In this document: piece after piece, positions 21,676-38,892 of the stretch
Layout of the letters: each line of letters opens with the position of its first letter
Numbering within the stretch: position 1 is the stretch's first letter
NCBI GenBank assembly: GCA_002702875.1
Contig: PACV01000072.1
Location: 51,094 to 91,080 of the forward strand
Source: Flavobacteriaceae bacterium
Lineage (GTDB): Bacteria > Bacteroidota > Bacteroidia > Flavobacteriales > Flavobacteriaceae
Direction: 5' to 3'
Length of the DNA: 39,987 nt
Made by a program: the position numbers and the translations under genes
Notes under the pieces: model-generated
Seen by the model: the letters and a program-made list of their open reading frames with translations, nothing else
Database searches by the model: none
What the model was told of the DNA's origin: nothing

Positions 21676-24642
21676 ATGAAAAATCTAATGAAATTTAAGA
21701 ACTTCCTATTGGCTGTTTTTGTTTTGTTTGCGCATGCTGTTATCGCACAAACTATATCAGGTACAGTTTCTAGTGAAGATGGTCCCTTACCGGGAGCAAC
21801 TGTTATTGTCAAGGGGACAAATAATGGTACAACAACTGATTTCGATGGAAATTTCTCAATAGAAGCTAGCTCATCTGATGTGCTTGTAGTTTCTTTTGTT
21901 GGTTTTTCCTCTCAAGAAGTGAGTGTTGGAGACAATGATCAGATTACAGTTAATTTACAAGCTGATAATGAGCTTGAAGAGGTTGTAATCACTGGTTATG
22001 GTTCTCAAAAGGAAAAAGAAATTACTTCTGCTGTTACAAAAATTACAGCTGATGAATTTAACAAAGGACCTATTAATACTACTGCAGGCCTTCTAGAAGG
22101 TAAAGTTGCAGGTCTTAGTATTTATAGTAAAGGTGGTAACCCAAATGCGGGTTCAACAATCCGTTTAAGAGGTATAACTTCTTTCGGTGATAATACTTCT
22201 CCTTTATTTGTAATCGACGGTGTTCCAGGATCTTCTATTGATAACGTAGATCCTAATGATATTGAAACTATCAACGTTTTGAAAGATGGTTCAGCTGCTG
22301 CGATTTATGGATCTAGAGGATCAAGTGGTGTAATCATTGTAACTACCAAAAAAGGTTCACAAGGTAGAGTTAAATTAAGTTATAATGGACAATATGGTGT
22401 TTCTGAAAAGATGAACCAAATTAAAATTATGACACCTGCTGAGTTTAGAGCCTTTGGAGGTGCTGACCTTGGAGGAAATGTTGCTAACTATGCTGATGAG
22501 GTAACTCGTCAAGCTGCTAGCTCAATTCACAATATCTCTGCTGCAGGTGGTTTTGACAATACTACTTTTAGAGTATCTGCTAACCTAAGAGATGTTGAAG
22601 GTGTTGTTAAAAGAACTGGATTTACTCAAGCTAATTTTAGAGCTAATATTCAAACTAAAGCTTTAAATGACAAACTTACAGTTGGTATTAATACATCTTA
22701 TACTAGAAGACAAGCTGACTTAGGTAACCCTTCTGTATTAGAATTCGCTAATATATTTAATCCAACAGCTCCTATACTTTTCAAGGATGCTCCACAACAA
22801 ATTCAGGATTATTTTACTGAAGAGCAAATAAGAAGATCTGGAGGATACTTCCAGACACTTGGATTATTTAGAAGTTTTAACCCTGTTGCAATACAAGAAC
22901 AAGGGGTTTACAAACAAGATAAAAATGAGTTTGAATATGGATTCAATTTAGATTACGCACTTACTGATGACCTTACAATTTACGCTTCTGCTGCTAATTT
23001 TAGATCAAGTGCTGAAAACAGAACATCTAGATCAGTTTATGATTACAATACTCAAGCAAACTTAGGTGATAGACCTGGTAGAGTTAGTTTTAACGATTTT
23101 GAAAATTCATATGAAAACTATCAAGTTTATGGTACTTTTGCTAAACAATTAAGTGGTATTGATCTTACAGTAACTGCAGGTTACGATTACTACCAAAGTA
23201 ATTTCTTCTCTAAAGGAATCGACGCTGGAGATTTCCCTAACGAAGCAATTGATTGGTCATTTAGCCTTGGCAGTTCTGAAGACTTACTAACAGGTAACAG
23301 AATTGGACTTAGTAGCTTTAAAGCTCCAACTAGTAAACTTATTGCTGGTTTTGGTAGAGTTAACTTAGTTATTGACAATGGTATTTATGTTAATGCTGGT
23401 GTTAGAAGAGAAGGTTCTAACAAACTTGGTAAAGAAAATTATTGGGGTGTATTTCCATCAGCTGGTGTTGGTGTAGACCTTAATAAGTATTTAGGAACAA
23501 GTTTTGATAAATTAAAAGTAAGAGTTGGTTATGGTACTACAGGTAACTTACCATCTCAAAATGGTTTATCTCAAAAAATATTCACCTTTAGTAATGCAAC
23601 TCAGGCAACTACTCAAGCTAGAGCAGCTAACCCTGATCTAAAATGGGAAGAAAAAACTGAGATTAACTTCGGTGTTGAGTATAGAAACGGACCACTTGAC
23701 GCTACTTTTGATATTTATACAAGAAAAATTACTGACTTTATTAGTGAAACTGAGGTCGATGCTGCTGTTTATGGATTTAACAGAAGATTTGAAAATGCTG
23801 GTGACATAAGTGCTGAAGGTTTTGAATTATCTTTAAGCTATGAAGTAAATGATCAGTGGACTCCTAGTTTAGTATTATCATCTAATCAATCTACAATTGA
23901 TAAGTATACTACCAAAGAGGGTATTACAACTGGAAATTTAGGTTCTCCTGGACAAAACTCAACAAATATGGTTCTTGTAAAAGAAGGATATGCATTGGGT
24001 ACTATTTGGGGTCCTGTTTATGACGGTGTAGATGCTGCTACTGGTAAGCCTAAATTCAAGGATGTTAATGGAGATGGCCAAATCATTGCTGGTCAAGATA
24101 AGGCATTAGATCCACTTGGAGATTTCACTAAGTTAGGTGATGGTATTCCTACTTTAGAGATAGGTTTTAATAATAACGTAAATCTAGGTAGAATACAAGT
24201 AAATGCATTTTTCCAAGCTGCGCTAGGCCACAGCTTAGTTAATACTTGGAGAGCATTCTTTGAACCAAGAATTGGAAGCCAGTTTGCTTACAATTTTATA
24301 AATACAAAGTATGCTGACGATAATTTGAAAGCTGCTGCATTTAGTTCGCTTTATGTTGAAAAAGCTGACTATTTCAAGCTTGCAAATTTAACTGTATCAT
24401 ATGATTTAGGTATTGCAGGTAATACAATTTCTTCTGCTTCAGTTTCTCTGAACGTAAGAAATGCATTTGTAATAACTGATTATACTGGTGCTGATCCAAC
24501 ACCATCTATTGTTGACGGAGGATACGATGCTGGTGGTGGTTCACTATCTAATACTGGTAACATTCTTGCTCCTGGTATTGATAGAAGAAACAATTACTTT
24601 GATTCTAGAAGTTTTACTCTAGGACTAAACATTAACTTTTAA
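21676..24642 (+). CDS. SusC/RagA-family TonB-linked outer membrane transporter
   Basis: A 988-residue TonB-dependent importer that works with SusD as a lid-covered nutrient pump in the outer membrane. After the signal peptide (LLAVFVLFAHAVIAQ) comes a carboxypeptidase-D-like regulatory domain at about 25-105 (ISGTVSSEDGPLPGATVIVK), the TonB box and Bacteroidota SusC signature LEEVVITGYGSQKEKE, the plug (GKVAGLSIYSKGGNPNAGST, PLFVIDGVPG, LKDGSAAAIYGSRGSSGVII), then the 22-strand barrel ending in phenylalanine. There is no N-terminal STN domain, so it is not a sigma-factor-signalling transducer. Codons are rich in GCT, GGT and CTT and the GC content of sampled lines (33-37%) exceeds that of the genes downstream (about 25%), suggesting high expression. 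Substrate unknown. susD follows 18 bp downstream. Confidence 0.96.
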   Translation: MKNLMKFKNFLLAVFVLFAHAVIAQTISGTVSSEDGPLPGATVIVKGTNNGTTTDFDGNFSIEASSSDVLVVSFVGFSSQEVSVGDNDQITVNLQADNELEEVVITGYGSQKEKEITSAVTKITADEFNKGPINTTAGLLEGKVAGLSIYSKGGNPNAGSTIRLRGITSFGDNTSPLFVIDGVPGSSIDNVDPNDIETINVLKDGSAAAIYGSRGSSGVIIVTTKKGSQGRVKLSYNGQYGVSEKMNQIKIMTPAEFRAFGGADLGGNVANYADEVTRQAASSIHNISAAGGFDNTTFRVSANLRDVEGVVKRTGFTQANFRANIQTKALNDKLTVGINTSYTRRQADLGNPSVLEFANIFNPTAPILFKDAPQQIQDYFTEEQIRRSGGYFQTLGLFRSFNPVAIQEQGVYKQDKNEFEYGFNLDYALTDDLTIYASAANFRSSAENRTSRSVYDYNTQANLGDRPGRVSFNDFENSYENYQVYGTFAKQLSGIDLTVTAGYDYYQSNFFSKGIDAGDFPNEAIDWSFSLGSSEDLLTGNRIGLSSFKAPTSKLIAGFGRVNLVIDNGIYVNAGVRREGSNKLGKENYWGVFPSAGVGVDLNKYLGTSFDKLKVRVGYGTTGNLPSQNGLSQKIFTFSNATQATTQARAANPDLKWEEKTEINFGVEYRNGPLDATFDIYTRKITDFISETEVDAAVYGFNRRFENAGDISAEGFELSLSYEVNDQWTPSLVLSSNQSTIDKYTTKEGITTGNLGSPGQNSTNMVLVKEGYALGTIWGPVYDGVDAATGKPKFKDVNGDGQIIAGQDKALDPLGDFTKLGDGIPTLEIGFNNNVNLGRIQVNAFFQAALGHSLVNTWRAFFEPRIGSQFAYNFINTKYADDNLKAAAFSSLYVEKADYFKLANLTVSYDLGIAGNTISSASVSLNVRNAFVITDYTGADPTPSIVDGGYDAGGGSLSNTGNILAPGIDRRNNYFDSRSFTLGLNINF

Positions 24643-24660
24643 TTAAAAAATAAATTGATT

Positions 24661-26388
24661 ATGAAGAATTTTATTAAAATTACATTGATGTCTTTATCAC
24701 TTGTGTTTTTTACAGCTTGTGATTTAGAAGAGGAACTGGAAAGTCAGTTTACTGAGAGTTTTAGTGCTGCTGCCGGAGGTGGTGGAGGTCCTTTGTACTC
24801 TTCAGCTGAAACTGATGGTTCTAGTCAAAGAACAAGTGATGCTATCGCTGGACCGTTTGATAAACTTAGAAGCGGAACTGCCGGCCATAGTAACTACTGG
24901 TCAATGCAAAGTGTCTCTACTGACGAAATGTTAGTTGGGGTAAAAGGTGGTGACTGGTATGATGGTGGTGTTTGGGTTGTAACTCATAGACATACTGTGA
25001 GTGCTGCTCATGGACCTACAAGTAATGCTTGGAATAGTCAGTACAACGCTATTAATGAAATTAATAACGTACTTGGTACAACTCTGACTGCTAATGAAAA
25101 AGCTCAATTGAGAGTTTTAAGAGCATTTTTCTACTGGAGACTTATGGACATGTTTGGAGGTGTTAAGATTGTAACTGAATCTTCTGCAGATCCTGCACAG
25201 TCTTCTAGAAGTGAAGTTTTTGATTTTGTAGAAAGTGAAATATTAGCTGCTTTAGGTACTACACGTGCTGATATCAAAGCTGGTACTATTGATTTATCTG
25301 GTAGTGATTTAAATACTACTGACAAAAAATATAGAATTAACCAGTATGGTGCAATGGGTTTACTCTCAAGAGTATATTTAAATGCTAAAGTTTATACATC
25401 TCCAGCTCCTTACACAGGAAACAATGGAACGGCGATGTGGACTGAAGCTGCAAATGCTGCTGATTGGGTAATTACAAATGGACCTTACATATTAGTAAAT
25501 GATGCTAATTATTCACTTGCTAACATAAGTAAGAGATTAGACCCTAGTTTAGGTGATCCTGATACAATTAGCGGAGTTCTAACTATTGGTGCTCCAAATA
25601 ATCAAGATAATCCAGAGATTATTTGGTCAGTTGATTTTGAGAACGACGCTGGTAAAGGTGGAATGAACTTTGCTCAGATGAGTTTACACCAACCAAGTCA
25701 AAATACTTTCAACTTAGCTGCTCAACCATGGAATGGATACCAAACTATGGAAGACTTTTATAGAAGGTATGAAGCTGGTGATGCTCGTAGAGGATGGTTC
25801 CTTTCAGGTAACCAAAAAAGTTATACTGGAAAACAATTAGTTGATTGGGCTTATGATGACAAAGCTACAGCTGAAGCTGTTGCTGCTGATGGAGAGGGTG
25901 TTCATGGTACTCTTGAACTAAATTATTCTCCTTACATCAACGAATTAGAGCCTGATTCTTGGAGACAGAGTGGTGTTAGAATGTTTAAATTTAGACATAA
26001 GCAATTCCAACAAAACTCAATGGATAACGATTTCCCAATTATTCGTTTAGCTGAAATGTATATGAATAGAGCTGAAGGTAGATCAATGGCTGCTGGTGAT
26101 TGGAGCCAAGGTTTAGCTGATGTGAATCAAATCAGATCAAGAGCAAATGTTGCTCCATTTGCGACATTAGATGCGCAAAAATTTTCTGAGGAAAGTGGTA
26201 GAGAGTTTTATCAAGAATCACACAGAAGAACTAACTTAGTTCGTTGGGATAAATTTACTGAAGCTTGGTGGGAGAAAACTGGTGCCAAGGGTGGATCAGT
26301 TGGAGATGCGAATAAAAACTTATTCCCAATTCCACAAGCACAAATACAAGCTGCTAACGGTAGCCTAAGTCAAAACGCGGGATACTAA
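24661..26388 (+). CDS. SusD/RagB-family nutrient-binding outer membrane lipoprotein
   Basis: The surface lid of the SusC transporter. I use the ATG at 24661 (MKNFIKITLMSLSLVFFTAC); a TTG two codons earlier is unneeded. Cys20 is the lipidated residue and is followed by DLEEELES, an acidic stretch like the lipoprotein export signal that sends Bacteroidota lipoproteins to the cell surface, and then a Gly run (AAGGGGGP). The mature protein has the SusD helical (TPR-like) scaffold, including SQYNAINEINNVL, LRVLRAFFYWRLMDMFGGV, LLSRVYLNAKVYT, and the C-terminal FPIIRLAEMYMNRAEGRSM with REFYQESHRRTNLVRW and NLFPIPQAQI. The protein is 575 residues. It shares the GCT/GGT-rich codon style of susC. A strong hairpin terminator follows the stop by 25 bp. 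Confidence 0.96.
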   Translation: MKNFIKITLMSLSLVFFTACDLEEELESQFTESFSAAAGGGGGPLYSSAETDGSSQRTSDAIAGPFDKLRSGTAGHSNYWSMQSVSTDEMLVGVKGGDWYDGGVWVVTHRHTVSAAHGPTSNAWNSQYNAINEINNVLGTTLTANEKAQLRVLRAFFYWRLMDMFGGVKIVTESSADPAQSSRSEVFDFVESEILAALGTTRADIKAGTIDLSGSDLNTTDKKYRINQYGAMGLLSRVYLNAKVYTSPAPYTGNNGTAMWTEAANAADWVITNGPYILVNDANYSLANISKRLDPSLGDPDTISGVLTIGAPNNQDNPEIIWSVDFENDAGKGGMNFAQMSLHQPSQNTFNLAAQPWNGYQTMEDFYRRYEAGDARRGWFLSGNQKSYTGKQLVDWAYDDKATAEAVAADGEGVHGTLELNYSPYINELEPDSWRQSGVRMFKFRHKQFQQNSMDNDFPIIRLAEMYMNRAEGRSMAAGDWSQGLADVNQIRSRANVAPFATLDAQKFSEESGREFYQESHRRTNLVRWDKFTEAWWEKTGAKGGSVGDANKNLFPIPQAQIQAANGSLSQNAGY

Positions 26389-26413
26389 TAGTTTAATTTG
26401 AATTTTTTTAAAG

Positions 26414-26443
26414 GGGTTGATTCTTATGAATCAACCCTTTTTT
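26414..26443 (+). terminator. Rho-independent terminator after susD
   Basis: GGGTTGATTC (26414-26423) pairs perfectly with GAATCAACCC (26428-26437) around the tetraloop TTAT, and six T residues follow (26438-26443). It is the strongest hairpin in the window. It sits between susD and the first VCBS gene, only 17 bp before that gene's GTG, so it would limit read-through from the susCD promoter. Confidence 0.9.
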
Positions 26444-26460
26444 AATTTATATCTTAAATT

Positions 26461-29400
26461 GTGAGGTACTTTTTTTTGTCATATCTGCTATTATTGTTAG
26501 TTGGTTCCTGTAAAAAAGAGAACAAGCTTTTTGTTTTGCGAGATGATACTGGGATTAAATTTGAAAATACATTAGATTATACTGAGGATTTTAATCCCTA
26601 CACCTATAGGAACTTTTATAATGGTGCTGGAGTTTCGGTTGGAGACATAAACAATGATGGTCTTATTGATATATATATTACTGGAAATATTGTTCCAAAT
26701 AAGTTATATCTAAATTTAGGAAATTTTAAATTTCGTGATATAACAAATCAAGCTGGTGTAGCTTGTGAAAATGTTTGGTCTACCGGTTCAGCATTAGTTG
26801 ATATTAATGGAGATGGACTACTAGATATCTATGTTTGTAAATCTGGTAAGCCAAGTGGTAAGAAAAGACATAATGAGCTATTTATTAACAATGGAGATTT
26901 AACCTTTTCTGAGAGATCCAAAGAATACGGTTTGGATTTTACAGGTTTATCTGTCCATGCATCTTTTTTTGACTTCGACAAAGATGGAGATTTAGATTGT
27001 TATTTATTGAGTAATTCCATAAGATCTGTGGGTGGATATGACTTGATTGAAGATCAAAGAAATATACCGAGTAAAGAGGGAAATAAATTTTTAGTAAATG
27101 AAAATGGAATTTTCGTAGATAAATCAGATGAGGTAGGAATTTATACATCAGAAATTGGTTTTGGTTTAGGTATTACTATATCTGACTTTAATGGCGACAG
27201 CTGGGATGATATTTATGTGTCTAATGATTTTTTTGAGAGAGATTATTTGTATTTAAATAACAAAAATGGAGGATTTAATGAAAAATTAGAGGAAAATTTC
27301 AAGTCAATTTCTATGGGATCTATGGGAGCTGACGTAGGAGATTTAAATAATGATTTATTACCTGATCTTTTTGTCACTGAGATGTTGCCAAAATCAATTG
27401 AACGAAAAAGAACCAAAACAATTTTTGAATCTTGGGATAAATATTCAAAAGCGCTCTCCAAAGGATATTTTCATCAGTTTCCAAGAAACACTTTACAGAG
27501 AAATATGGGAAAAGATGGTTTTTTTGAGGTTGGAAGATTATCTGGAATTTCTAGTACTGAATGGAGTTGGGCTTCTCTTTTTTTTGATGCAGACAATGAT
27601 GGCCTCAAAGACATTTTTATTTCAAATGGTATTTATAAAGATTTACTTGATAGAGATTATTTAACATTTACAGCAAATGATGAAAAAATTAAAAGTATTG
27701 TAAATAATAAAACATTTTCAATTAAAGGTCTTATTGATTTAATGCCTTCAAAACCTGTTGTAAATCACATGTATAAAAATAAAGGTGATTTTAATTTCGA
27801 ATTCGTATCTAATAATTGGGGTTTAGACCATGAAACTTTTAGTAATGGCAGTGCTTATGCAGATTTTGATAATGACGGAGACCTTGATCTTGTAGTAAAT
27901 AATGTGAATATGCCATTTTATATTTATGAAAACAATTTAGATACCTTAAAAAACAGAAGTTTAAAAATCAATTTACTTTCAGATTCTAAAAATACAAGAG
28001 CACTTGGTTCAAAAATTATAGCATATATTGATAAGAAACCAATAACTTATGATAATCACATTTCAAAGGGTTTTCAAAGCTCTATCAATGGACCAATTCA
28101 TCTTGGTGTGGGAAATACAAAAATTATAGATTCAATTGAAATAACATGGCCTAATAGTTCAAGATCAATTATTAAAGGTCTCAATTCAAATCAAACTTAT
28201 AATTATTCAGAGCCTTTAATTACAAAATCAGTTAAAGAAAATGAGAATTTGGAGGATGAAATAAAAAGATCAGATAAGATTATTAATTTTAATCATAAAG
28301 AAAATAAATTCATTGATTTTAATATTGATAGGCTCATACCTGAAATGATTAGTAATGAAGGTCCTGCACTTTCACTATCAGATGTAAATAATGATGGGAT
28401 AGATGATTTTTTTGTTGGAGGTGCAAAATTTCAAAATTCCAAAATATTTATTTCACATGACAACAAATATATAGTTGACTCTTTAGTATTTTCTAAAAAT
28501 AGAAATTCTGAAGATGTTGCTTCAATTTTTTTCGATGCAGATGGTGACAGTGACAAAGATTTATATGTATGTAGTGGTGGTAGAGCGTTTTCAAATAATG
28601 ATATTGCATTAAAAGATAGGATATACATAAATGATGGTAAAGGTAATTTTAAGTATAATGATAATATTTTACCAAAAGATTTTTTTGTAAATAGTTCATC
28701 GGTAACACATTCAGATTTTAATAATGATGGTCTGCAAGATCTATTTGTTGGACAAAGAACAAAGACGAGAAATTATGGTTTACCTGGAAGTGGTTATTTA
28801 ATGTATAATAGTTCTAATGATGGATATAAAATTCAAGATCAGGACGTTTTTTTAAACATTGGCATGATAACTGATGTTAAATCTGGTGATATTAATAATG
28901 ATGGTTGGGATGATATTGTTGTTGTTGGTGAATGGATGAATATTAAAATTTTTATAAATAATAAAGGAGTATTTAAAGATGAAACCGATAAATACGGGGT
29001 TACTAACACCAGAGGTTTTTGGAAATCTGTAGATCTTGTTGATATAGATGATGATGGAGATGTCGATATTGTTGCAGGAAATCTTGGACAAAATTCATAT
29101 TTTAAAAAGGGAGATAGAATGTATGTTAGTGATTTTGACAACAACGGTACAATAGAACAAATTATTTGTCACAAAATTGATAACAAGTTTTATCCAATTG
29201 TTGACAGAAATGAGTTAATCTCCCAATTACCATCCCTTAAAAAAAAGTTTGTAAGATTTGAAAATTATTCTAGCGCAACAATTAATGATCTTTTTGAAAA
29301 TGAAAAACTAAATCAATCTTTAATATTTAATATTGATATTACTGAGTCTATAATTTTGTATAATGAGGATGGTATTTATAAAAAAGAGAACTTACCAATT

Positions 29401-29700
29401 GAGGCTCAATACACACCAATTTATTCAATTAAGATTAGTGACGTGGATAATGATAATGCTAAAGATATTTTTCTTGGCGGTAATCAATTTAATGTTAAGC
29501 CACAGTTTGGAAGACATGATGCATCAAAGGGTTTAATTATTTACGGTAAAAAAATTGGTAATAAATACTCATTTAAAAAAGTTAACACACTTGGAATTGA
29601 TGGACAAATTCGTAATTTTGCAATTCTTGAAAAAAGAAAAAAGAAAATACTTGTTAGCGCTATTAATAACGGCAAATTAGAATTTAATGAGATTAATTAG
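26461..29700 (+). CDS. VCBS/FG-GAP repeat lipoprotein with ASPIC/UnbV domain (paralogue 1)
   Basis: A 1079-residue surface or periplasmic lipoprotein: GTG start, hydrophobic signal, lipobox with Cys17 (LVGSCKKEN). The N-terminal half has seven FG-GAP/VCBS repeats with Ca2+-type D-x-(N/D)-x-D-G loops, e.g. VGDINNDGLIDIYITGN, VDINGDGLLDIYV, FFDFDKDGDLDCYL, ADFDNDGDLDLVVNN. An ASPIC/UnbV module lies at about 500-580 (SKGFQSSINGPIHLGVG, EITWPNSS). A second repeat block follows (LSDVNNDGIDDFFVGG, VDIDDDGDVDIVAGNLGQN). This predicts two beta-propellers joined by the ASPIC module. It has no T9SS domain. Family members (CRTAC1-like) are frequent next to SusCD genes, but their function is unknown; a substrate-binding or adhesion role is inference. 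Its end overlaps the next gene by 14 bp. Confidence 0.9.
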   Translation: MRYFFLSYLLLLLVGSCKKENKLFVLRDDTGIKFENTLDYTEDFNPYTYRNFYNGAGVSVGDINNDGLIDIYITGNIVPNKLYLNLGNFKFRDITNQAGVACENVWSTGSALVDINGDGLLDIYVCKSGKPSGKKRHNELFINNGDLTFSERSKEYGLDFTGLSVHASFFDFDKDGDLDCYLLSNSIRSVGGYDLIEDQRNIPSKEGNKFLVNENGIFVDKSDEVGIYTSEIGFGLGITISDFNGDSWDDIYVSNDFFERDYLYLNNKNGGFNEKLEENFKSISMGSMGADVGDLNNDLLPDLFVTEMLPKSIERKRTKTIFESWDKYSKALSKGYFHQFPRNTLQRNMGKDGFFEVGRLSGISSTEWSWASLFFDADNDGLKDIFISNGIYKDLLDRDYLTFTANDEKIKSIVNNKTFSIKGLIDLMPSKPVVNHMYKNKGDFNFEFVSNNWGLDHETFSNGSAYADFDNDGDLDLVVNNVNMPFYIYENNLDTLKNRSLKINLLSDSKNTRALGSKIIAYIDKKPITYDNHISKGFQSSINGPIHLGVGNTKIIDSIEITWPNSSRSIIKGLNSNQTYNYSEPLITKSVKENENLEDEIKRSDKIINFNHKENKFIDFNIDRLIPEMISNEGPALSLSDVNNDGIDDFFVGGAKFQNSKIFISHDNKYIVDSLVFSKNRNSEDVASIFFDADGDSDKDLYVCSGGRAFSNNDIALKDRIYINDGKGNFKYNDNILPKDFFVNSSSVTHSDFNNDGLQDLFVGQRTKTRNYGLPGSGYLMYNSSNDGYKIQDQDVFLNIGMITDVKSGDINNDGWDDIVVVGEWMNIKIFINNKGVFKDETDKYGVTNTRGFWKSVDLVDIDDDGDVDIVAGNLGQNSYFKKGDRMYVSDFDNNGTIEQIICHKIDNKFYPIVDRNELISQLPSLKKKFVRFENYSSATINDLFENEKLNQSLIFNIDITESIILYNEDGIYKKENLPIEAQYTPIYSIKISDVDNDNAKDIFLGGNQFNVKPQFGRHDASKGLIIYGKKIGNKYSFKKVNTLGIDGQIRNFAILEKRKKKILVSAINNGKLEFNEIN

Positions 29701-30253: not shown

Positions 30254-30259
30254 ATAATA

Positions 30260-33200
30260 ATGATAAATAAAATTTATTTTTTTCTGTTTTTAATTTTGAT
30301 ATCAGCTTGTTCAAAAACTGAAGAACAAAAATTATTTAAGTTGCTTGACCCCCAAGAATCAGGTATAAATTTTGAAAATAATCTTCCATTTGATGAAGAT
30401 TTTAATGTATACAAGTACAGAAATTTTTATAACGGAGGTGGAGTTTCAATTGGAGACATTGACAACGACGGTTTATTGGATGTTTACATGACTAATAATT
30501 TAGGTCCAAATAAGTTATATAAAAACATGGGTAATATGACTTTTAAAGACATTTCTAAAGAGGCTAGGGTTGAAGGTGAAAAGGCTTGGTCTACTGGAGT
30601 GACTATGATAGACATAAATGCTGATGGATTTTTGGATATATATGTTTGTAATTCAGGAGATATAAAGGGAGATAATAAACAAAATGAGTTTTTTATCAAT
30701 AATGGTGATGGAACTTTTACAGAAAAAGCTTCAGATTTCAATTTGGATGATTTGGGGTTTTCAACTCATTCTTCATTCTTCGATTACGACAAAGACGGTG
30801 ATTTAGATGTATATCTTTTAAATAATTCTTATCAATCAATTGAATCTTTTAATCTTAAAAAAAACGAAAGACCTATTAGAGATATTTTAGGTGGCGATAA
30901 GTTATTGGAAAATATAGATGGAAAGTTTTTTGATGTTAGTGAGAAAGCTGGTATATATGGTAGTGTTATAGGTTTTGGACTTGGTGTAACCGTAGCTGAT
31001 TTTAATAAAGATGGTTGGGAAGATATTTTTGTATCAAATGATTTTTTTGAAAGAGATTACCTATATATTAATAATAAGGACAAGACTTTTAGTGAAGTAT
31101 TAACAGATCAAATTCAGTCAATTAGTGGCGCTTCAATGGGAGCAGACGCAGCTGATATAAACAATGACGGGTATAACGATTTGTTTGTAACTGAAATGCT
31201 TCCTTATGATTATGATAGATTAAAAACTGTTACAACATTTGAAGATTGGAATAAATATAGTTATAATGTCAAAAATGGATATTATCATCAATACACTAGA
31301 AATGTACTTCAACTCAATAATAGGAATGATAGTTTCAGTGAAATCGGAAGATTTAGTGGTGTTGAGGCATCAGACTGGAGTTGGGGTGCACTATTTTTTG
31401 ACATGAACAATGATGGCTTAAAAGATCTATTCATTGCAAATGGAATATACAAGGATTTAACAAATCAGGATTATTTAAGATATATATCTAATGAGGAGGT
31501 AGTTAAATCGATTGTAACAAACAATAAAGTTAATTACAAAAAACTTGTTGATTTAATTCCATCTAATAAAGTTGAGAATCATGCCTACATTAACACCGGA
31601 AATTTAAATTTTAAAAGGGACAGCTCAACAGGACTTGAATTGCCAAGTTTCTCAAATGGTTCAGCATATGGAGATTTAGACAATGACGGTGATTTAGATT
31701 TAATTGTGAATAATGCAAATATGAAGTCTTTTGTTTATGAAAACCAAACAATGGATATTGGGTCAGGTAACTATTTAAAATTTATACTTAAAGGGACTGG
31801 CAAAAATATAGATGCAATTGGAACTCAAATTACTATTTATTCTGGTCATCAGACTTTCTATCTTGAGCATCAACCCGCAAGAGGATTTCAGTCAAGTATT
31901 GATTTTAGACCAAACTTTGGACTACCAAATAATAATCCTGTAAATATAGAAGTTTTGTGGCCCTCAGGTAAAAAAACATTTTTGAATGATATTATTCCAA
32001 ATCAGACAATTAGTTTAAGTGAGAATGATGCATCATTTGATTTTTTAAAAGAAAAAAAATCTAAATCCCCAATTTTTAAAAAATCTAAAGTAATTAAATC
32101 AGTAAAACACGAAGAAAATACATTTGTTGATTTTCATAAAAATAGACTTATGTTTCATATGTGCAGTACAGAGGGACCGACTTCTTCAATTGCTGACATA
32201 GATAATGACGGTGATAAAGAAATATTTTTAGGAGGTTCTAAAGGTATTTCTGCTTCAATTTATAATCTTAGAACTGGAAAGAAAATAAAAAAAATGTCAA
32301 TTTTTGAAGAGGCAAAAATTTCTGAAGATTCTGAAAGTATTTTTTTTGACGCTGATAATGACGGAGACCTTGATTTAATTGTAGGAAGTGGTGGTATTGA
32401 ATTTTCTGATAACTCACCTGATTTTAGAGACCGATTGTACATTAATAATGGAAAAGGAAGTTACACTATTTCCAAATTTAATTTTGATGGATTAAATGTC
32501 AGCACAGGGGCTATTGCTGTTTCAGACGTAGACAAAGACGGAAACAAAGATTTTTTTATTGGAGAAAGATTGATTCCATCAAAATATGGTATGCCAGGTT
32601 CAGGCTTTTTATTTCTAAATGAAGGAAACGCAAATTTTGTGAATTCAACAGACAAAAATTTAATTGGAGCCAGAGATATTGGGATGATCACTGACGCAAA
32701 GTTTTTTGATTTAGACGACGATGGATATGATGAATTAATCATAGTTGGAGAATTTATGGGTATTGAAATTTTTAAAAATAACAAGGGGGTCTTAAAAAGA
32801 ATTGAGAATAATAATCTTTCTGAAATTAAGGGGTGGTGGAGTAAACTAGAGGTTGGAGATTTTAATAATGATGGTTTAGTTGATTTAGTAGTTGCTAATC
32901 ATGGAACTAATTCTCGTTTTAGAGCTTCAAATGATAAACCAATAAGTATATACATGAATGATTTTGACAATAATGGTAGGCTTGACCCAATTTTAACATT
33001 TAGAGCTGAAAATGGAAAAGATTATCCATATTCTTTAAGACACGATCTAATTAATCAAATGAGGGTTTTAACAAAAAAATTCCCTAATTATGAATCTTTT
33101 AAAAACTCAGATATTCAAAAAATATTTACTCCCGAATTAATAAGTAATAGTATTATAAAGTCTGTTAATGAGCTTGAAACGTCAATGTTTATAAATAAGG

Positions 33201-33520
33201 GAGAATTTAAATTTGAAAGGATTAAGTTACCAAAGGAAGTCCAGTTTTCTCCAACTATGGCAATCCTTCCATATGATTTTGATAAAGATGGTGATCTAGA
33301 TGTTTTAATGGGAGGAAATTTATTTGGAGTTAAACCTGAAATGGGAAGGTATGATTCTACTTATGGAGTTTATATTGAAAACTTGGGTAATAATAAATTC
33401 AAATTCCATGAAGACGGTAAGGGTTTTTTTATTAAAGGTGAGATTCGAGAAATTATAAACAATGAAAGTGAATTATATGTTATCAGAAATAACAAAGAAT
33501 TAATTAAATATGAATTTTAA
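30260..33520 (+). CDS. VCBS/FG-GAP repeat lipoprotein with ASPIC/UnbV domain (paralogue 2)
   Basis: A 1086-residue lipoprotein (lipobox LISACSKTEE, Cys17) closely resembling paralogue 1. Both share the segment GINFEN..P(F)..DFN.Y.YRNFYNG(A/G)GVS(V/I)GDI after the signal. Repeats include IGDIDNDGLLDVYMTNN, IDINADGFLDIYVCNSG, YDKDGDLDVYLLNNS, VADFNKDGWEDIFVSNDFF and DLDNDGDLDLIVNNAN. ASPIC/UnbV lies at about 503-575 (ARGFQSSIDFRPNFGL, EVLWPSGK). A second block follows (IADIDNDGDKEIFLGGS, VGDFNNDGLVDLVVANHGTN), and the end has DFDKDGDLDVLMGGNLFG. The ASPIC region separates two predicted propellers. Its 3' end overlaps paralogue 3 by 11 bp. Function unknown; the C-S-K-T-E-E start may act as a surface-export signal. 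Confidence 0.9.
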   Translation: MINKIYFFLFLILISACSKTEEQKLFKLLDPQESGINFENNLPFDEDFNVYKYRNFYNGGGVSIGDIDNDGLLDVYMTNNLGPNKLYKNMGNMTFKDISKEARVEGEKAWSTGVTMIDINADGFLDIYVCNSGDIKGDNKQNEFFINNGDGTFTEKASDFNLDDLGFSTHSSFFDYDKDGDLDVYLLNNSYQSIESFNLKKNERPIRDILGGDKLLENIDGKFFDVSEKAGIYGSVIGFGLGVTVADFNKDGWEDIFVSNDFFERDYLYINNKDKTFSEVLTDQIQSISGASMGADAADINNDGYNDLFVTEMLPYDYDRLKTVTTFEDWNKYSYNVKNGYYHQYTRNVLQLNNRNDSFSEIGRFSGVEASDWSWGALFFDMNNDGLKDLFIANGIYKDLTNQDYLRYISNEEVVKSIVTNNKVNYKKLVDLIPSNKVENHAYINTGNLNFKRDSSTGLELPSFSNGSAYGDLDNDGDLDLIVNNANMKSFVYENQTMDIGSGNYLKFILKGTGKNIDAIGTQITIYSGHQTFYLEHQPARGFQSSIDFRPNFGLPNNNPVNIEVLWPSGKKTFLNDIIPNQTISLSENDASFDFLKEKKSKSPIFKKSKVIKSVKHEENTFVDFHKNRLMFHMCSTEGPTSSIADIDNDGDKEIFLGGSKGISASIYNLRTGKKIKKMSIFEEAKISEDSESIFFDADNDGDLDLIVGSGGIEFSDNSPDFRDRLYINNGKGSYTISKFNFDGLNVSTGAIAVSDVDKDGNKDFFIGERLIPSKYGMPGSGFLFLNEGNANFVNSTDKNLIGARDIGMITDAKFFDLDDDGYDELIIVGEFMGIEIFKNNKGVLKRIENNNLSEIKGWWSKLEVGDFNNDGLVDLVVANHGTNSRFRASNDKPISIYMNDFDNNGRLDPILTFRAENGKDYPYSLRHDLINQMRVLTKKFPNYESFKNSDIQKIFTPELISNSIIKSVNELETSMFINKGEFKFERIKLPKEVQFSPTMAILPYDFDKDGDLDVLMGGNLFGVKPEMGRYDSTYGVYIENLGNNKFKFHEDGKGFFIKGEIREIINNESELYVIRNNKELIKYEF

Positions 33521-36500
33521 TTTTTTTAAAGTACTTATTATATTAATTTTTTTTTCTAGTTGTAAAGAAAAAAGTGATGTAAATTTCAGTAACCTCTACA
33601 ATAAAGTTGACTCAGTATATTCAGGTGTTAATTTTTCCAACGATCTAGTTGACAACAGTGAAATGAATATTGTGGAGTATTTATATTTTTACAATGGTGG
33701 AGGTGTTGCTTTGGGTGATATAAATAACGATGGTTTAGATGATATTTATTTGACTGCAAATCAAAAACCTGATCAATTATATCTTAATCTAGGTGATTTA
33801 AAATTTAAAAATATTTCTAACAATTTAGGAATTGAAAATCAATCTTCTTGGTCAACTGGTGTATCTATGGCTGACGTTAATGGAGACGGATGGTTGGATA
33901 TTTATGTATCAAAAGTAGGTAAATTTAAAACACTAGATTCGCATAATTTATTGTACATAAATCAAAGAGATGGAACATTTAGAGAATTATCAAAAAAGTT
34001 TGGATTAGACTTCTCAGGTTTTTCAACTCAAGCTGCATTTTTTGATTATGATAGAGATGGTGATTTAGACATGTATTTATTAAATCACAATATTCACACC
34101 CCAAGAAATTACACTGATTCATCTAAAAGATTTGAGAATGACTCGTTAGCTGGGGATAAATTTTTTGAAAATAGATTAAATGAAAAAGAAGGAAGATTCG
34201 TTGATGTAACTGCTGATGTTGGTATTTTTAGTAGTTTTCTTGGATATGGATTGGCAATTACTACTGCTGATATAAATAATGATGGTTGGACTGATATCTA
34301 TGTAGGGAATGATTTTCATGAAAACGATTATGTTTATATCAATCAAAAAAATAAAACATTCAAGGAATCAGGTCAAGAATATTTATCAAACAATTCACGT
34401 TTTACCATGGGAGTAGATATTGCAGATATGAATAATGACATGTTGTATGACATATTTACTCTAGATATGATGCCATTCTATAACGACGTTTTTTTGAAAT
34501 CAGGAGGAGAGGATTCTGATCAAGTGTATAAAATAAAAAATAGCTTTGGGTATGGTGACCAGTATGCCAGAAATAATTTCCATTTAAATAGAGGAAATTC
34601 AAAGTTTTCAGATATTGCTTTATATACTGAAACATATGCTACTGACTGGAGTTGGTCAGTTTTGTTGGAGGACTTAGATAATGATGGAATGAATGATATA
34701 TTTATAACTAACGGTATATTCAAAAGACCTAATGATCTAGATTATATAAATTATGCTAGTAATATCGATTATAGATCTTTTGAGACTTCAAATAATAATG
34801 ATTTATATAAAAAACTTATAGATAAAATGCCAACACTAATGATTCCAAATATAATTTTTCGTAATCAAGGCAATTTAAATTTTAAAAAAGAATCGAAAAG
34901 TGTAGGTATGGAAAAATCATATTCAAATGGTGCAGCCTATAGTGATTTAGACAATGACGGAGACATTGATTTAGTTATAAATAATATAAATCAAGAGGTT
35001 TTTATTTTAGAAAATTTAACAGATGGAAAAAATAATTCTGTTCAAATTATTTTATCAAATAATGATAATAATTATAGTTCAATTGGGGCTAAGGTTAACT
35101 TATATTTAAAAGATAAAAAATTAACTAAACAATTAAATCCAGTCAAAGGATTTCAATCTTCCTCGTCTTACAAAATTAACTTTGGAATTGAGAGTAATTC
35201 AAAGGTTGATTCACTTAGTGTAATATGGCCTGATGGTTCAACTCAAACTAATTTTAACATTCCAATAAACCAATTAACCACAATCAAGAAAAAAAAATCA
35301 ATAGTAAAAAAAGAATTTAGAAAAGATATTGTTAGTGATCCTGAAAAATTCGACATACATATTGAAAACAGTACTTTTGATTATGACAGAGAGATTTTAA
35401 TTCCAGAGTTACTATCTACTGAAGGACCCGCTTTGGTAAAAGCAGACTTTAATGGTGATAATTTTGACGATTTATATATTGGTGGGGCAACTGATCAAAG
35501 TGGTAAGATATACATAGCAAACTCAAAAGGGGAGTTCAAATTAAAAGATATACCAATATTTAAAAAAGATTTAATGTTCGAGGACGTTGATGCCTCAGAA
35601 ATCGATTTCGATAATGATGGAGATCTAGATTTATATGTCGTCTCTGGAGGTTCTGAATTTCTAGAATCTGATTTAAGACTTTCAGATAGAATATATATTA
35701 ATGATGGTAAGGCAAATTTTTCAAAGTATCCAGTTAGATTACCAGCTTATAACGGGGGAGCAATAGCTGTATCTGATTTTAATAATGACGGTTTTGATGA
35801 TATTTTTTTAGGATCTAGGTCAATTCCAGGGTCATATGGCTTGTCTCCATTCAGTTTTATTTTACTTAATAATAAAAGAGGTGGCTTTGGAATATTGGAG
35901 AAATTTAGAATTGGAATGGTAACAGACGCTAAGTGGATAGATATTAATCAAGATAAATTTTTAGATCTTGTTATTGTTGGAGATTGGATGCCAGTAACAA
36001 TTTTAATTAACCAGGGAAATGAAACTTTTAAAAATGAAACTAACAATTATGGTTTAAAAAATACTAGTGGAATGTGGAATTCTATAACGATCCACGATAT
36101 AGACAATAACGGGAAAGATGATTTAATTATAGGAAATGCTGGAGAAAATTTAAAGTTTAAGGCAAGTAAGGATAGTCCTATCGAGGTATTTATTAAAGAT
36201 TTCGATAATAATGGAAGATTAGACCCTATTATTTTTTATAATTTTTTAGGAAACTTTGTTCCATTTGCTTCAAAGGATAAGTTAGATAAACAGATACCCG
36301 AGCTTAAAAAGAAATTTACTAATTATAAATCTTTTTCAGAAGTAAAATCTTTTTATGATTTATTTGAAATTAGTAGAGACAGCCTTGTTGAATACAAAAA
36401 AATTCAGGAATTAAGGTCAATGATTTTTTTAAATATTAAAGATTCACTCCATCAAATTCCTTTACCAAAAGAGGCACAATTAAGTCCAATTCAGGACATA

Positions 36501-36746
36501 TTAATTACTGGCAATAATCAAAAGACTCTCTATTTTGTTGGAAACTATAATAATTATGTAAATGAATTAGGTAAAAATAATTCAAATGTTGGTGGAAAAT
36601 ATAAAATAAAGGAGAATCTTAAGTTTGATGAGTTTGAGATTTTAAATCTTCCAAATCAATTAAATACAAGAAAAATTATTGAAGTCGGATCTACAGAATT
36701 ACTAATCATTTCAAACAATGACTTTAGTTACTTAATAAAGAAATAA
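33510..36746 (+). CDS. VCBS/FG-GAP repeat lipoprotein with ASPIC/UnbV domain (paralogue 3, divergent)
   Basis: A 1078-residue lipoprotein (FFSSCKEKSD, Cys18), the most divergent of the three. The architecture is the same: FG-GAP/VCBS repeats such as LGDINNDGLDDIYLTAN, ADVNGDGWLDIYVSKVG, FFDYDRDGDLDMYLLNHN and SDLDNDGDIDLVINNINQE; ASPIC/UnbV at about 508-583 (VKGFQSSSSYKINFGI, VIWPDGSTQ); and a second block (KADFNGDNFDDLYIGGA, IDFDNDGDLDLYVVSGG, DIDNNGKDDLIIGNAGEN). Where the other two have YG(L/M)PGSG, this one reads YGLSPFS, and its tail differs (LPNQLNTRKIIEVGS). The divergence points to a different ligand or place in a complex; this is inference. The gene starts inside paralogue 2 and ends 15 bp before the DUF1080 gene. 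Confidence 0.9.
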   Translation: MNFNFFKVLIILIFFSSCKEKSDVNFSNLYNKVDSVYSGVNFSNDLVDNSEMNIVEYLYFYNGGGVALGDINNDGLDDIYLTANQKPDQLYLNLGDLKFKNISNNLGIENQSSWSTGVSMADVNGDGWLDIYVSKVGKFKTLDSHNLLYINQRDGTFRELSKKFGLDFSGFSTQAAFFDYDRDGDLDMYLLNHNIHTPRNYTDSSKRFENDSLAGDKFFENRLNEKEGRFVDVTADVGIFSSFLGYGLAITTADINNDGWTDIYVGNDFHENDYVYINQKNKTFKESGQEYLSNNSRFTMGVDIADMNNDMLYDIFTLDMMPFYNDVFLKSGGEDSDQVYKIKNSFGYGDQYARNNFHLNRGNSKFSDIALYTETYATDWSWSVLLEDLDNDGMNDIFITNGIFKRPNDLDYINYASNIDYRSFETSNNNDLYKKLIDKMPTLMIPNIIFRNQGNLNFKKESKSVGMEKSYSNGAAYSDLDNDGDIDLVINNINQEVFILENLTDGKNNSVQIILSNNDNNYSSIGAKVNLYLKDKKLTKQLNPVKGFQSSSSYKINFGIESNSKVDSLSVIWPDGSTQTNFNIPINQLTTIKKKKSIVKKEFRKDIVSDPEKFDIHIENSTFDYDREILIPELLSTEGPALVKADFNGDNFDDLYIGGATDQSGKIYIANSKGEFKLKDIPIFKKDLMFEDVDASEIDFDNDGDLDLYVVSGGSEFLESDLRLSDRIYINDGKANFSKYPVRLPAYNGGAIAVSDFNNDGFDDIFLGSRSIPGSYGLSPFSFILLNNKRGGFGILEKFRIGMVTDAKWIDINQDKFLDLVIVGDWMPVTILINQGNETFKNETNNYGLKNTSGMWNSITIHDIDNNGKDDLIIGNAGENLKFKASKDSPIEVFIKDFDNNGRLDPIIFYNFLGNFVPFASKDKLDKQIPELKKKFTNYKSFSEVKSFYDLFEISRDSLVEYKKIQELRSMIFLNIKDSLHQIPLPKEAQLSPIQDILITGNNQKTLYFVGNYNNYVNELGKNNSNVGGKYKIKENLKFDEFEILNLPNQLNTRKIIEVGSTELLIISNNDFSYLIKK

Positions 36747-36761
36747 ATTACTATATTTAGT

Positions 36762-37529
36762 ATGCAAAAAAACACAATAATGAAATACATTTTTTATTTT
36801 TTAGGGACTGTATTACTATTAGGTCAGGAGAAACCAAAACCTGAAGCGACAGAGTATTGGGAACCGGAGCCAGTAGTTGTTACTCCCGCTCAAGATAATT
36901 TACCACCAAGCGATGCTATTGTCCTTTTTGACGGAAGTGATTTGTCAAAATGGAGAAATGCCAGGGGAGGTGGAGAAGCCTCTTGGATTATTAATGACAA
37001 CGGATCTATGACAGTAACAAGAAACGGGGGTATTGAGACAATTGATGAGCATGGATCAATTCAGTTGCATATTGAATGGAGGACTCCAACTAAAATGGAG
37101 GGAAAAGGTCAAGGAAGAGGTAACAGTGGAATTATCTTTCAAAGAAGATATGAGGTCCAAATTTTAGATAGCTATAATAATAGAACATACTCAAATGGCC
37201 AGGCTGCATCAATATATAAGCAATATGCTCCACTAGTAAATGCTTCCAAACCTCCTGGAGAATGGCAGACGTATGATATTATTTTTACTGAACCAGAATT
37301 TGATAAAATTGGTATCATGACTAAAAGAGGAAGATTTACAGTATTTCATAATGGCATATTAGTTCAAAATAATGTTGAGATTCTTGGAACTACTGAGTAT
37401 ATAGGTATGCCAAAGATTGGCAAAAATGAAATTTCTGGATACATGGGTAAAAACACTAAAAAAAACCTATACATACAAGATCATGGTAATCCAGTTGAAT
37501 TTAGAAATATTTGGATGAGAAAATTATAA
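36762..37529 (+). CDS. DUF1080 (3-keto-disaccharide hydrolase family) exported protein
   Basis: A 255-residue protein with a signal peptide (MKYIFYFLGTVLLLGQ; the ATG at 36780 is an alternative start) and one PF06439-type concanavalin-like domain. The diagnostic stretches are IVLFDGSDLSKWRN near residue 48, the sheet segment IQLHIEWRTP, GNSGIIFQRRYEVQILDSY, and GEWQTYDIIFTEP, followed by FTVFHNGILVQNN and EFRNIWMRKL at the end. Pfam names this family 3-keto-disaccharide hydrolase after characterised members; whether this protein does that is inferred. It probably acts in the periplasm. It is 15 bp after the VCBS genes and 4 bp before the Gfo/Idh gene, so a shared pathway in which the dehydrogenase makes the 3-keto substrate is plausible. 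Confidence 0.9.
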   Translation: MQKNTIMKYIFYFLGTVLLLGQEKPKPEATEYWEPEPVVVTPAQDNLPPSDAIVLFDGSDLSKWRNARGGGEASWIINDNGSMTVTRNGGIETIDEHGSIQLHIEWRTPTKMEGKGQGRGNSGIIFQRRYEVQILDSYNNRTYSNGQAASIYKQYAPLVNASKPPGEWQTYDIIFTEPEFDKIGIMTKRGRFTVFHNGILVQNNVEILGTTEYIGMPKIGKNEISGYMGKNTKKNLYIQDHGNPVEFRNIWMRKL

Positions 37530-37533
37530 ATTA

Positions 37534-38892
37534 ATGAATATGAAGTCGAGAAGAAAATTTTTAAGAAATACAGGGCTTATTACTGGAGGTATTATAACAT
37601 CCTCTTTTGCTAATTCGTCAATTAAACCTTATAGTAAAATTGTTGGTGCTAATGATAGAATTAAATTTGGTGTAATTGGATGCAAAGGTATGGGTTGGTC
37701 TGATATGAGGTCAATTTTAAGTCATGATGGAACTGATTGCATTGCTATATGTGATGTTGATGATAGAGTTTTAGAGCAGAGATCAAGTGATTTAAAAAAA
37801 TTAACTGGTAAAAAACCAAAAGTTTATAAGGATTATAGAAAGTTATTAGAAAATAAAGATGTTGATGCTGTTGTTATAGGTACACCTGATCATTGGCACT
37901 GCTTAATGTTGGTTCATGCACTTGAGGCTGGCAAACATATTTATTGTGAAAAGCCTATTTCAAACTCTGTAAAAGAGTCAATGATAATGTTAGACAAAGC
38001 TAAAGAACACAGTAAATATCTTATTCAAGTTGGGCAGTGGCAAAGGAGTTCACCTCATTATAGAGATGCTTTAGATTATCTTTGGTCTGGAAAGTTAGGT
38101 CAGATTCGAATGGTTAGAGTTTGGGCTTATCAAGGTTGGTACGGAATGTTGGATCCTCTCCCTGATTCTCCTGTCCCAAAAGGTGTAGATTATAAAAGTT
38201 GGTTAGGTCCAGCTCCATCAAGGCCGTTTAACACAAACAGATTTCATTTTAATTTCAGATGGTATTGGGATTATGCTGGTGGATTAATGACTGATTGGGG
38301 AGTTCATGAAATTGATATTGCATTATTTGGTATGAAAGTTAGAGAGCCTTTGTCTGTTGTTGCAAGTGGAGGAAGATTTGGATACCCAGATCAAGATACT
38401 GAAACACCAGATACATTACAAACTTTATTTCAGTATGAAAATTGGACAATGCTTTGGGAAAATGCAGTTGGGATTGATAGTGGAAATTATGGACAAGATG
38501 AGGGGATTGCATTTATCGGTAATGATGGAACTTTAGTTATTGATAGAGGTGGATGGCAAGTACGTCCTGAGTTGGATTATCAAAATAATCTGCCAAGGCA
38601 TAAAAAACCAAAGAAAATTCAACCTATTGCTTACACTAAGGCAAGAGGAAGCGGTCTTGGTTATCACACAAAAAACTTTATTGATGCTATTAGAAACAAT
38701 ACTCCTGAATCTCTTAATTGCGGAATTGATAGTGGAAGTATTGCTTGTATAAATGCTCATATGGGAAATATTTCTTACAAAGTAGGTAGAAAAATTTTCT
38801 GGGATAAAGAAAAACAAAATTTTGGAGATGATACTGAGGCTAACGATCTTATTACTCCAAAATATAATAATGGATTTAAGTTACCAACTTAA
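37534..38892 (+). CDS. Tat-exported Gfo/Idh/MocA-family oxidoreductase
   Basis: A 452-residue NAD(P)-dependent sugar oxidoreductase. The N-terminus SRRKFLRNTGLITGGIITSS is a twin-arginine signal, so it is exported folded with its cofactor. The Rossmann region is FGVIGCKGMGWSDM. The family motif EKP is at 139-141 (IYCEKPIS; Lys140 is the expected catalytic lysine), and the second motif GGLMTDWGVHEIDIA at 249-263 carries Asp254 and His258, matching the usual Asp-x-x-x-His site. TPDHWH near 117 is typical of the subfamily. Tat-exported members found next to DUF1080 genes are thought to oxidise C3 of sugars or glycosides; this one's substrate is unknown. It ends 21 bp before a strong terminator, as the last gene of the operon. 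Confidence 0.94.
   Translation: MNMKSRRKFLRNTGLITGGIITSSFANSSIKPYSKIVGANDRIKFGVIGCKGMGWSDMRSILSHDGTDCIAICDVDDRVLEQRSSDLKKLTGKKPKVYKDYRKLLENKDVDAVVIGTPDHWHCLMLVHALEAGKHIYCEKPISNSVKESMIMLDKAKEHSKYLIQVGQWQRSSPHYRDALDYLWSGKLGQIRMVRVWAYQGWYGMLDPLPDSPVPKGVDYKSWLGPAPSRPFNTNRFHFNFRWYWDYAGGLMTDWGVHEIDIALFGMKVREPLSVVASGGRFGYPDQDTETPDTLQTLFQYENWTMLWENAVGIDSGNYGQDEGIAFIGNDGTLVIDRGGWQVRPELDYQNNLPRHKKPKKIQPIAYTKARGSGLGYHTKNFIDAIRNNTPESLNCGIDSGSIACINAHMGNISYKVGRKIFWDKEKQNFGDDTEANDLITPKYNNGFKLPT

Follow-up and report, generated by a model that had tools for sequence, protein, structure and literature searches.

A conserved SusCD importer unit with predicted propeller lipoproteins, joined in one Flavobacteriaceae genus to a candidate 3-keto-glycoside gene pair

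What would a flavobacterium do with the cargo of a SusC/SusD pair that has no glycosidase, sulfatase or regulator adjoining it? The question is raised by a run of eight plus-strand open reading frames (ORFs) at positions 21676-38892 of a 39,987-nucleotide stretch of DNA, hereafter the window, from Flavobacteriaceae bacterium (assembly GCA_002702875.1, contig PACV01000072.1, positions 51,094 to 91,080). The run comprises SusC, SusD, a lipoprotein with FG-GAP and ASPIC/UnbV domains (VCBS1), a small lipoprotein (LIP), two further FG-GAP/ASPIC lipoproteins (VCBS2 and VCBS3), a DUF1080 protein and a Gfo/Idh oxidoreductase (Table 1). The gene content is as first described: the original prediction of a SusCD pair with six tightly packed genes in one direction was borne out for all eight ORFs, with assignments over Pfam or TIGRFAM cut-offs for all but LIP, and its reading of the run as a dedicated uptake locus is supported. 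It is reasonably probable, if far from certain, that the locus encodes a TonB-dependent importer, that its cargo is small soluble glycosides and that the cleavage system paired with it has been swapped between lineages, the partner here being 3-keto oxidation-elimination. The importer would consist of the first six genes (module A), and the cleavage partner of the DUF1080 and Gfo/Idh pair (module B).

Module A is a conserved unit, separate from module B. A search with VCBS3 covered 397 genomes of the window's family, with a maximum of two candidates scored per genome, so that the unit may be commoner in the family than counted here. The 47 best matches and one locus of genome G001 made 48 loci for comparison, or 49 with the window; one further match (44%, in a genome already represented) was left out. 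Genomes, contigs, loci and families are cited by our own numbers (G, C, L and f), the host genome being G000. The order SusC-SusD-VCBS1-LIP-VCBS2-VCBS3 was complete in 41 of the 49 loci (the window and 40 of the 48 others), 37 of them outside the window's genus. The genus itself was sampled by four genomes, to which loci L013-L015 add none, belonging to G002, G001 and G003. Of the eight loci without the full order, five (L160, L179, L187, L188, L189) are situated at the end of a contig or on a short one, and three (L169, L181, L185) are without the six-gene block despite 17-20 kb of sequence. In a sample of 395 Bacteroidota genomes, a profile of 42 LIP proteins matched 28, which belong to six families. 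Since one match (L246, E 3.4e-4) is probably false, judged from its gene neighbourhood, the LIP carriers are probably 27 of the 395. When ORFs of up to 82 residues were ignored, VCBS-LIP-VCBS stood side by side in 17 of 26 LIP loci of this sample, with SusC-SusD directly upstream in 11 of the 17, and the remaining LIP loci were rearranged, interrupted or incomplete. The unit with SusCD was found in five Bacteroidota families, and VCBS-LIP-VCBS in six.

The positions within the unit are also conserved in a tree of 48 proteins, where VCBS1, VCBS2 and VCBS3 of the window's family each group, with starred support, with the protein at the same position of L221 (family f8). VCBS3 of L222 (f8) also groups by position, VCBS1 of L222 and of L242 (f5) does so only at support 82 with their VCBS2 proteins left unresolved, and in several f24 and f22 loci two VCBS copies are mutually nearest. 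The six-gene block is old. In the literature searched there was no paper mentioning both VCBS and SusD, nor both UnbV and SusD, and the unit seems to be undescribed there. FG-GAP and SusD occurred together in two papers, one that speaks of FG-GAP as an adhesion domain and one on horses. Paralogous triple-VCBS sets without LIP were seen in L198, L199 and L200, with SusCD in the first two; in L198, SusD is separated from the VCBS genes by xylulokinase-like and xylose isomerase genes.

The VCBS proteins, 1078-1086 residues long, all carry PF13517 (FG-GAP) and PF07593 (ASPIC/UnbV) over cut-off. LIP (188 residues) has no Pfam or NCBIfam match; its 42-row alignment holds 13 invariant columns, and the family is usable as a marker of the unit. 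An AlphaFold2 (AF2) model of LIP made from three sequences reached a predicted local distance difference test (pLDDT) value of 54 and was not used further. A lipobox pattern was present in 38 of 42 VCBS1, 39 of 42 LIP, 35 of 48 VCBS2, 42 of 49 VCBS3 and 33 of 42 SusD proteins; this simple pattern is a rough guide, because it also matched falsely inside Gfo/Idh. The VCBS and LIP lipoproteins are probably surface-located and would act in capture. Module A would then be an outer-membrane importer in which the lipoproteins around SusCD capture small soluble glycosides, which would enter by TonB-driven uptake.

The same lipoproteins could instead bind a polysaccharide or a particle, the VCBS array being an adhesin, a glycan-gripping machine or an unrecognised propeller lyase, while SusCD imports fragments made elsewhere. 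Polysaccharide lyases with a propeller fold exist, and the AF2 model of VCBS2 (pLDDT 72) has a predicted propeller fold. Furthermore, FG-GAP repeats in marine flavobacteria are read as calcium-binding adhesion domains (PMC2668756). However, the best fold match of the VCBS2 model is not a lyase but CRTAC1 (9etn, TMt 0.68, TMq 0.36), which is likewise the best match of VCBS3 in a sequence search of the PDB. CRTAC1 (cartilage acidic protein 1) shares the FG-GAP propeller with an ASPIC-like region, whereas the bacterial proteins, lipoproteins by motif, have about double the length of the solved chain and accompany SusCD in twos or threes. Nor is there any glycoside hydrolase (GH), lyase, glycanase or sulfatase among the Pfam matches of the nine proteins from 21676 to the window end, and the identified neighbours of module A elsewhere are mostly di- and monosaccharide genes. 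We therefore regard the polysaccharide or particle account as improbable.

These neighbours change from lineage to lineage. Of the 37 loci from the rest of the family, 22 have a divergent LacI gene upstream, and 20 have a PAP2 lipoprotein that is absent from the window and that we take to be vanadium-haloperoxidase-like by its motif; the PAP2 gene is the commonest first gene after VCBS3 (16 of 37; for example L178:15658-16998). Xylose isomerase (above cut-off) and an FGGY kinase (closest to xylulokinase, though under the cut-off) are each found in eight of the 37, and a major facilitator superfamily protein in 10 loci is nearest to a sucrose/proton symporter model, below its cut-off. PSCyt1/DUF1549 genes follow the block instead in four loci, and an unidentified gene in three. 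With neighbour families scanned via one member each, GH65, beta-phosphoglucomutase and GH13 were found near the block in L249 and L251, GH32, a PfkB kinase and a sugar transporter in L255 and L258, the trehalase family in L254 and L256, and GH97 and GH13 near others; an MGH1-like hydrolase is among the neighbours in other genomes, and GH37 is found close by in some loci too. In place of the 3-keto pair, module A has hydrolases, GH65 with beta-phosphoglucomutase, sugar kinases or xylose genes beside it in other lineages. Such changing catabolic neighbours behind one importer offer a route to infer its substrates. Comparison of SusD with solved SusD chains (nearest 3jys, and the starch SusD 3ck7) singled out no substrate.

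The phrase "instead of glycosidases" in that prediction can, at most, describe a lineage choice, as elsewhere the importer stands beside GH13, GH32, trehalase, GH65, GH97 or xylose genes. Its statement that glycoside hydrolases, lyases, sulfatases and regulators are lacking holds next to the locus in the window, but for glycosidases it fails across the genus, since the congener G003 has GH32 downstream of the locus, at a distance of about 2.5 kb and after two ORFs. A full-length GH32 match over cut-off was obtained in two of the four genus genomes (G000, on contig C41, and G003), and there was no GH65 match in any of the four, completeness being only about 62% in two of them. A loss of hydrolases from the genus is ruled out by GH32 in these two genomes and by a GH13 gene on contig C30 of the host itself.

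A more specific proposal, which we consider speculative and unlikely to hold as a whole, would make the unit a TonB-dependent importer of a class not yet described, taking up osmolyte glycosides of phytoplankton such as sucrose, trehalose, glucosylglycerol or glucosylglycerate. VCBS1-3 and LIP would form a surface capture complex around SusCD, and open-ocean members would have added broad 3-keto oxidation-elimination to feed on many low-abundance glycosides. The sucrose-, trehalose- and maltose-type neighbours and the MGH1-like hydrolase elsewhere, the GH32 gene of the congener and the open-ocean relatives are in keeping with it. These close relatives, known from metagenome assemblies or comparable genomes of uncultured bacteria, are read as open-ocean from their genome titles.

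Module B has a narrower distribution than module A. The DUF1080 and Gfo/Idh genes follow the block in all four genus genomes and in none of the 37 other complete family loci, most of which were viewed for about 4 kb downstream. In the genus the gaps are short (15-152 bp between VCBS3 and DUF1080 and 4-29 bp between DUF1080 and Gfo/Idh, in all four), and the proteins of the genus-mates are 52-81% identical to the window's. In the congener G002 two tandem DUF1080 genes, 75% and 62% identical to the window's, lie between VCBS3 and Gfo/Idh (L143:2484-4095). Away from the genus, genes of the same two DUF1080 and Gfo/Idh subfamilies stand side by side in four loci (Algoriphagus and Rhodocytophaga with one each, Chitinophaga with two), showing that the pair can stand on its own. 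This adjacency, together with the nearest solved chains, favours the original view of the two proteins as a putative 3-keto-glycoside pair. The DUF1080 protein matches PF06439 well over the cut-off of 26.8 bits and is nearest to 4qhz, and Gfo/Idh is nearest to 8tdf and 8tdh, both named "dehydrogenase" (E about 1e-35).

Oxidation-elimination through 3-keto chemistry is itself already known, and a 2024 study reportedly describes a broad 3-keto glycan pathway. Since Gfo/Idh carries a twin-arginine motif (SRRKFLRNTG) and none of the five DUF1080 proteins of the genus has a lipobox, both are predicted to be probably periplasmic. Free nicotinamide adenine dinucleotide (NAD) is not expected in the periplasm, so that Gfo/Idh would need either to hold its cofactor tightly or to have a redox partner. 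The periplasmic glucose-fructose oxidoreductase of Zymomonas is a Gfo/Idh enzyme with bound cofactor that is exported by twin-arginine translocation (Tat), and its structures (PDB 1h6a-d) are among the Gfo/Idh matches, at low similarity (E 1e-10). In our model, a Tat-exported Gfo/Idh enzyme holding its cofactor tightly would oxidise, or redox-exchange, the 3-hydroxyl of the imported glycoside in the periplasm, and the secreted DUF1080 protein would cleave the resulting 3-keto-glycoside. DUF1080 proteins have been reported or proposed as 3-ketoglycoside hydrolases (PMC9007349). Elsewhere in the host genome, contig C43 (L194:9946-16386) carries genes for a GMC oxidoreductase, a Gluconate_2-dh3 subunit, two TIM-barrel-like proteins, a Gfo/Idh protein and a DUF1080 protein. 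Further 3-keto chemistry would probably be shared with this cluster, whose GMC oxidoreductase and Gluconate_2-dh3 protein could supply net oxidation.

The placing of DUF1080 beside the importer recurs in a second family, f24, in keeping with the original prediction. Single-sequence phmmer overlooked DUF1080 in L226 and L229, and a profile was used in its place. DUF1080 lay within 15 kb of LIP in six of the eight first-found f24 carriers against 0.49 expected (P 4e-7), or in four of five when counted by genus (P 3e-5), and, with all 25 carriers from other families than the window's taken together, near LIP in seven where 1.56 were expected (P 5e-4). Because f24 was chosen and the test designed once the pattern was known, because the f24 genomes are related and because the test assumes even placement, these P values are indicative only, which weakens the case for the proposed link. 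A wider search of 92 f24 genomes yielded 11 carriers, seven of them with DUF1080 within 15 kb of LIP. In G751 a TIM barrel, a GMC oxidoreductase, a Gluconate_2-dh3 subunit and DUF1080 adjoin the block; in G776, a carrier found later, DUF1080 is about 3.5 kb away, and there are genes similar to those for the G751 GMC oxidoreductase and TIM barrel. G596 has, on one strand, SusC-SusD-VCBS-LIP-VCBS-Gfo/Idh-TIM barrel-VCBS-DUF1080, its DUF1080 protein being 54% identical to the window's. The 3-keto link is so a lineage-bound one, yet it has arisen or been retained more than once.

Several further findings weigh against a functional link of importer and 3-keto pair. No DUF1080 gene was present in the stretches fetched for the 37 other family loci, where the view downstream of VCBS3 was about 4 kb in 35, 0.4 kb in L157 and 1.4 kb in L172, nor in 14 stretches fetched further downstream (13 family loci and one of f8); Gfo/Idh-like genes do occur far downstream in L252 and L264. 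In f5, f8, f22 and f38, DUF1080 was within 15 kb in one of 17 carriers against 1.08 expected, without enrichment, some of these contigs being short (12-15 kb in L234 and L238). Four of the 11 f24 carriers are without a nearby DUF1080 gene: G702 (genus g318) and G440 lack it, the contig of G800 ends 1.7 kb past LIP (20 kb before LIP was viewed) and that of G792 is 3.1 kb long. DUF1080 genes are common, at 1-20 per genome in the f24 carrier screen. The Gfo/Idh protein of G596 belongs to another subfamily (31% over 131 residues) and has no obvious Tat signal. The window's DUF1080 subfamily occurs in only seven of 80 loci of its Gfo/Idh subfamily, three of the seven being of the window's genus. 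The best NCBIfam match of Gfo/Idh, NF058561 "glycoside 3-dehydrogenase", is at 163.5 bits far below its cut-off of 750, as is the score for NF058563 below its own. The neighbours elsewhere suggest several substrates, so that no single substrate follows, and the hairpin discussed below may uncouple SusCD from the other six genes.

Part of this evidence would fit another account, in which the oxidative pair is a mere neighbour that is part of the genome's general 3-keto network and was placed behind the importer once, in the genus ancestor, with no shared substrate. The lack of the pair in the viewed stretches of the 37 further family loci with a complete importer, the chance-level proximity of DUF1080 in the four other families, the pairs that stand without the importer in Algoriphagus, Rhodocytophaga and Chitinophaga, and the strong hairpin after SusD are all as this account would have it. 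The host genome, a 1.7-Mb draft that is 92% complete, is also rich in members of both families, with six DUF1080 and 14 Gfo/Idh matches beside two SusD. However, the pair has been retained at short gaps in all four genus genomes, with its proteins diverged to the identities given above, and DUF1080 is near the importer in f24 as well. On balance we think it unlikely that the pair is a bystander, and prefer the importer with an exchangeable cleavage partner.

The transcriptional arrangement bears on how far the eight genes act as one. They lie on the same strand with small gaps, SusC and SusD being separated by 12 bp with both families over cut-off (TIGR04056, PF07980), and VCBS1/LIP and VCBS2/VCBS3 overlap. 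In this respect the single gene run of the original prediction stands, but a strong terminator-like hairpin at 26410-26441 divides SusCD from the rest. It reaches z -5.4 against dinucleotide shuffles, none of 200 shuffles folding equally well. The region holds five terminator-like sites where 5.4 would be expected, but the stem of this one is the longest by far. The SusD-VCBS1 junction is strongly folded (z < -2, mononucleotide shuffles) in 35 of 41 folded homologous gaps, and its median gap is 72 bp against at most 11 bp at the remaining junctions of the block. Since the folding is strong and conserved, the "one operon" may be two expression units; since the gap is also longer, SusCD may be made in excess over the remaining genes. 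A promoter scan gave no signal (92 sites against 98 in shuffles). The original prediction in its exact form, a dedicated glycosidase-free system whose eight genes are a single operon conserved across Flavobacteriia, is very improbable. The eight genes do keep their order in all four genus genomes (one with two DUF1080 copies), but not in any of the 37 other complete family loci, and the GH32 gene downstream in G003 and the hairpin speak against it too. What recurs widely is the six-gene unit; the set of eight is confined to the genus in the family sample.

Compared with known systems, the locus would appear to combine 3-keto chemistry of a known type with a conserved SusCD importer unit that has propeller lipoproteins. 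It resembles SusCD polysaccharide utilization loci in having a SusC/SusD pair followed by lipoproteins, and in the SusD chains to which it is nearest. Unlike them, it has no glycoside hydrolase, lyase or sulfatase, whereas a polysaccharide utilization locus in the strict sense holds at least one glycoside hydrolase, polysaccharide lyase, carbohydrate esterase or sulfatase; three FG-GAP/ASPIC lipoproteins and LIP replace the usual surface glycan-binding proteins. Known 3-keto-glycoside pathways are those of Bacteroides thetaiotaomicron BT2157 and its neighbours, and of Caulobacter lacABC with CCNA_01705. They share with the window the combination of DUF1080 with a C3-oxidising enzyme, which in the window is a presumed one. 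The window differs in that the presumed oxidant is a Tat-type Gfo/Idh protein, in the direct link to a SusCD importer and in a DUF1080 protein nearest to 4qhz. If the pairing with 3-keto chemistry is functional, it shows how a bacterium with a small genome and only two SusD genes in its draft could live on many soluble glycosides without needing a separate hydrolase for each linkage.

Table 1. Features of the locus, in positions of the window
Feature	Position	Strand	Basis
SusC/RagA TonB-linked outer-membrane transporter	21676..24642	+	TIGR04056 581.6 bits (cut-off 368.25), TIGR04057 signature
SusD/RagB lipoprotein	24655..26388	+	PF07980 91.9 bits, PF14322; lipobox cysteine then acidic DLEEEL
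Terminator-like hairpin, SusD/VCBS1 gap	26410..26441	+	z -5.37, 14-bp stem
VCBS1, FG-GAP/ASPIC lipoprotein, probably surface-exposed	26461..29700	+	PF13517, PF07593; lipobox pattern
LIP, 188-residue lipoprotein, marker of six-gene unit	29687..30253	+	no Pfam/NCBIfam match; 42-row alignment
VCBS2, FG-GAP/ASPIC lipoprotein, probably surface-exposed	30260..33520	+	PF13517, PF07593; AF2 model
VCBS3, FG-GAP/ASPIC lipoprotein, probably surface-exposed	33510..36746	+	PF13517, PF07593; lipobox pattern
DUF1080, 3-keto-disaccharide hydrolase family, probably secreted	36762..37529	+	PF06439 135 bits; PDB 4qhz E 2.6e-63
Gfo/Idh/MocA oxidoreductase, twin-arginine motif	37534..38892	+	PF01408, PF19051; NF058561 163.5 bits; PDB 8tdf E 1.2e-35
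250-residue membrane protein	38965..39717	+	no Pfam match; downstream of Gfo/Idh in 4/4 genus genomes

The listed start of SusD is a TTG codon, with an ATG two codons further in. A protein of about 400 residues follows the 250-residue membrane protein in three of the four genus genomes, and upstream of SusC lie a tRNA-Leu gene and a ribose-phosphate pyrophosphokinase gene on the opposite strand. The second SusD of the host genome (contigs C78 and C30; L191 and L192) is also trailed by a VCBS gene, which is cut at the contig end; C30 begins with the C-terminal part of a VCBS gene, and C78 and C30 may adjoin. Penicillin-amidase and GH13 genes are found near this second SusD. Further upstream in the window, at 14522-18403, is a gene for a 1293-residue reprolysin-like metalloprotease with a P-domain, a TSP3 repeat and a secretion sorting tail.

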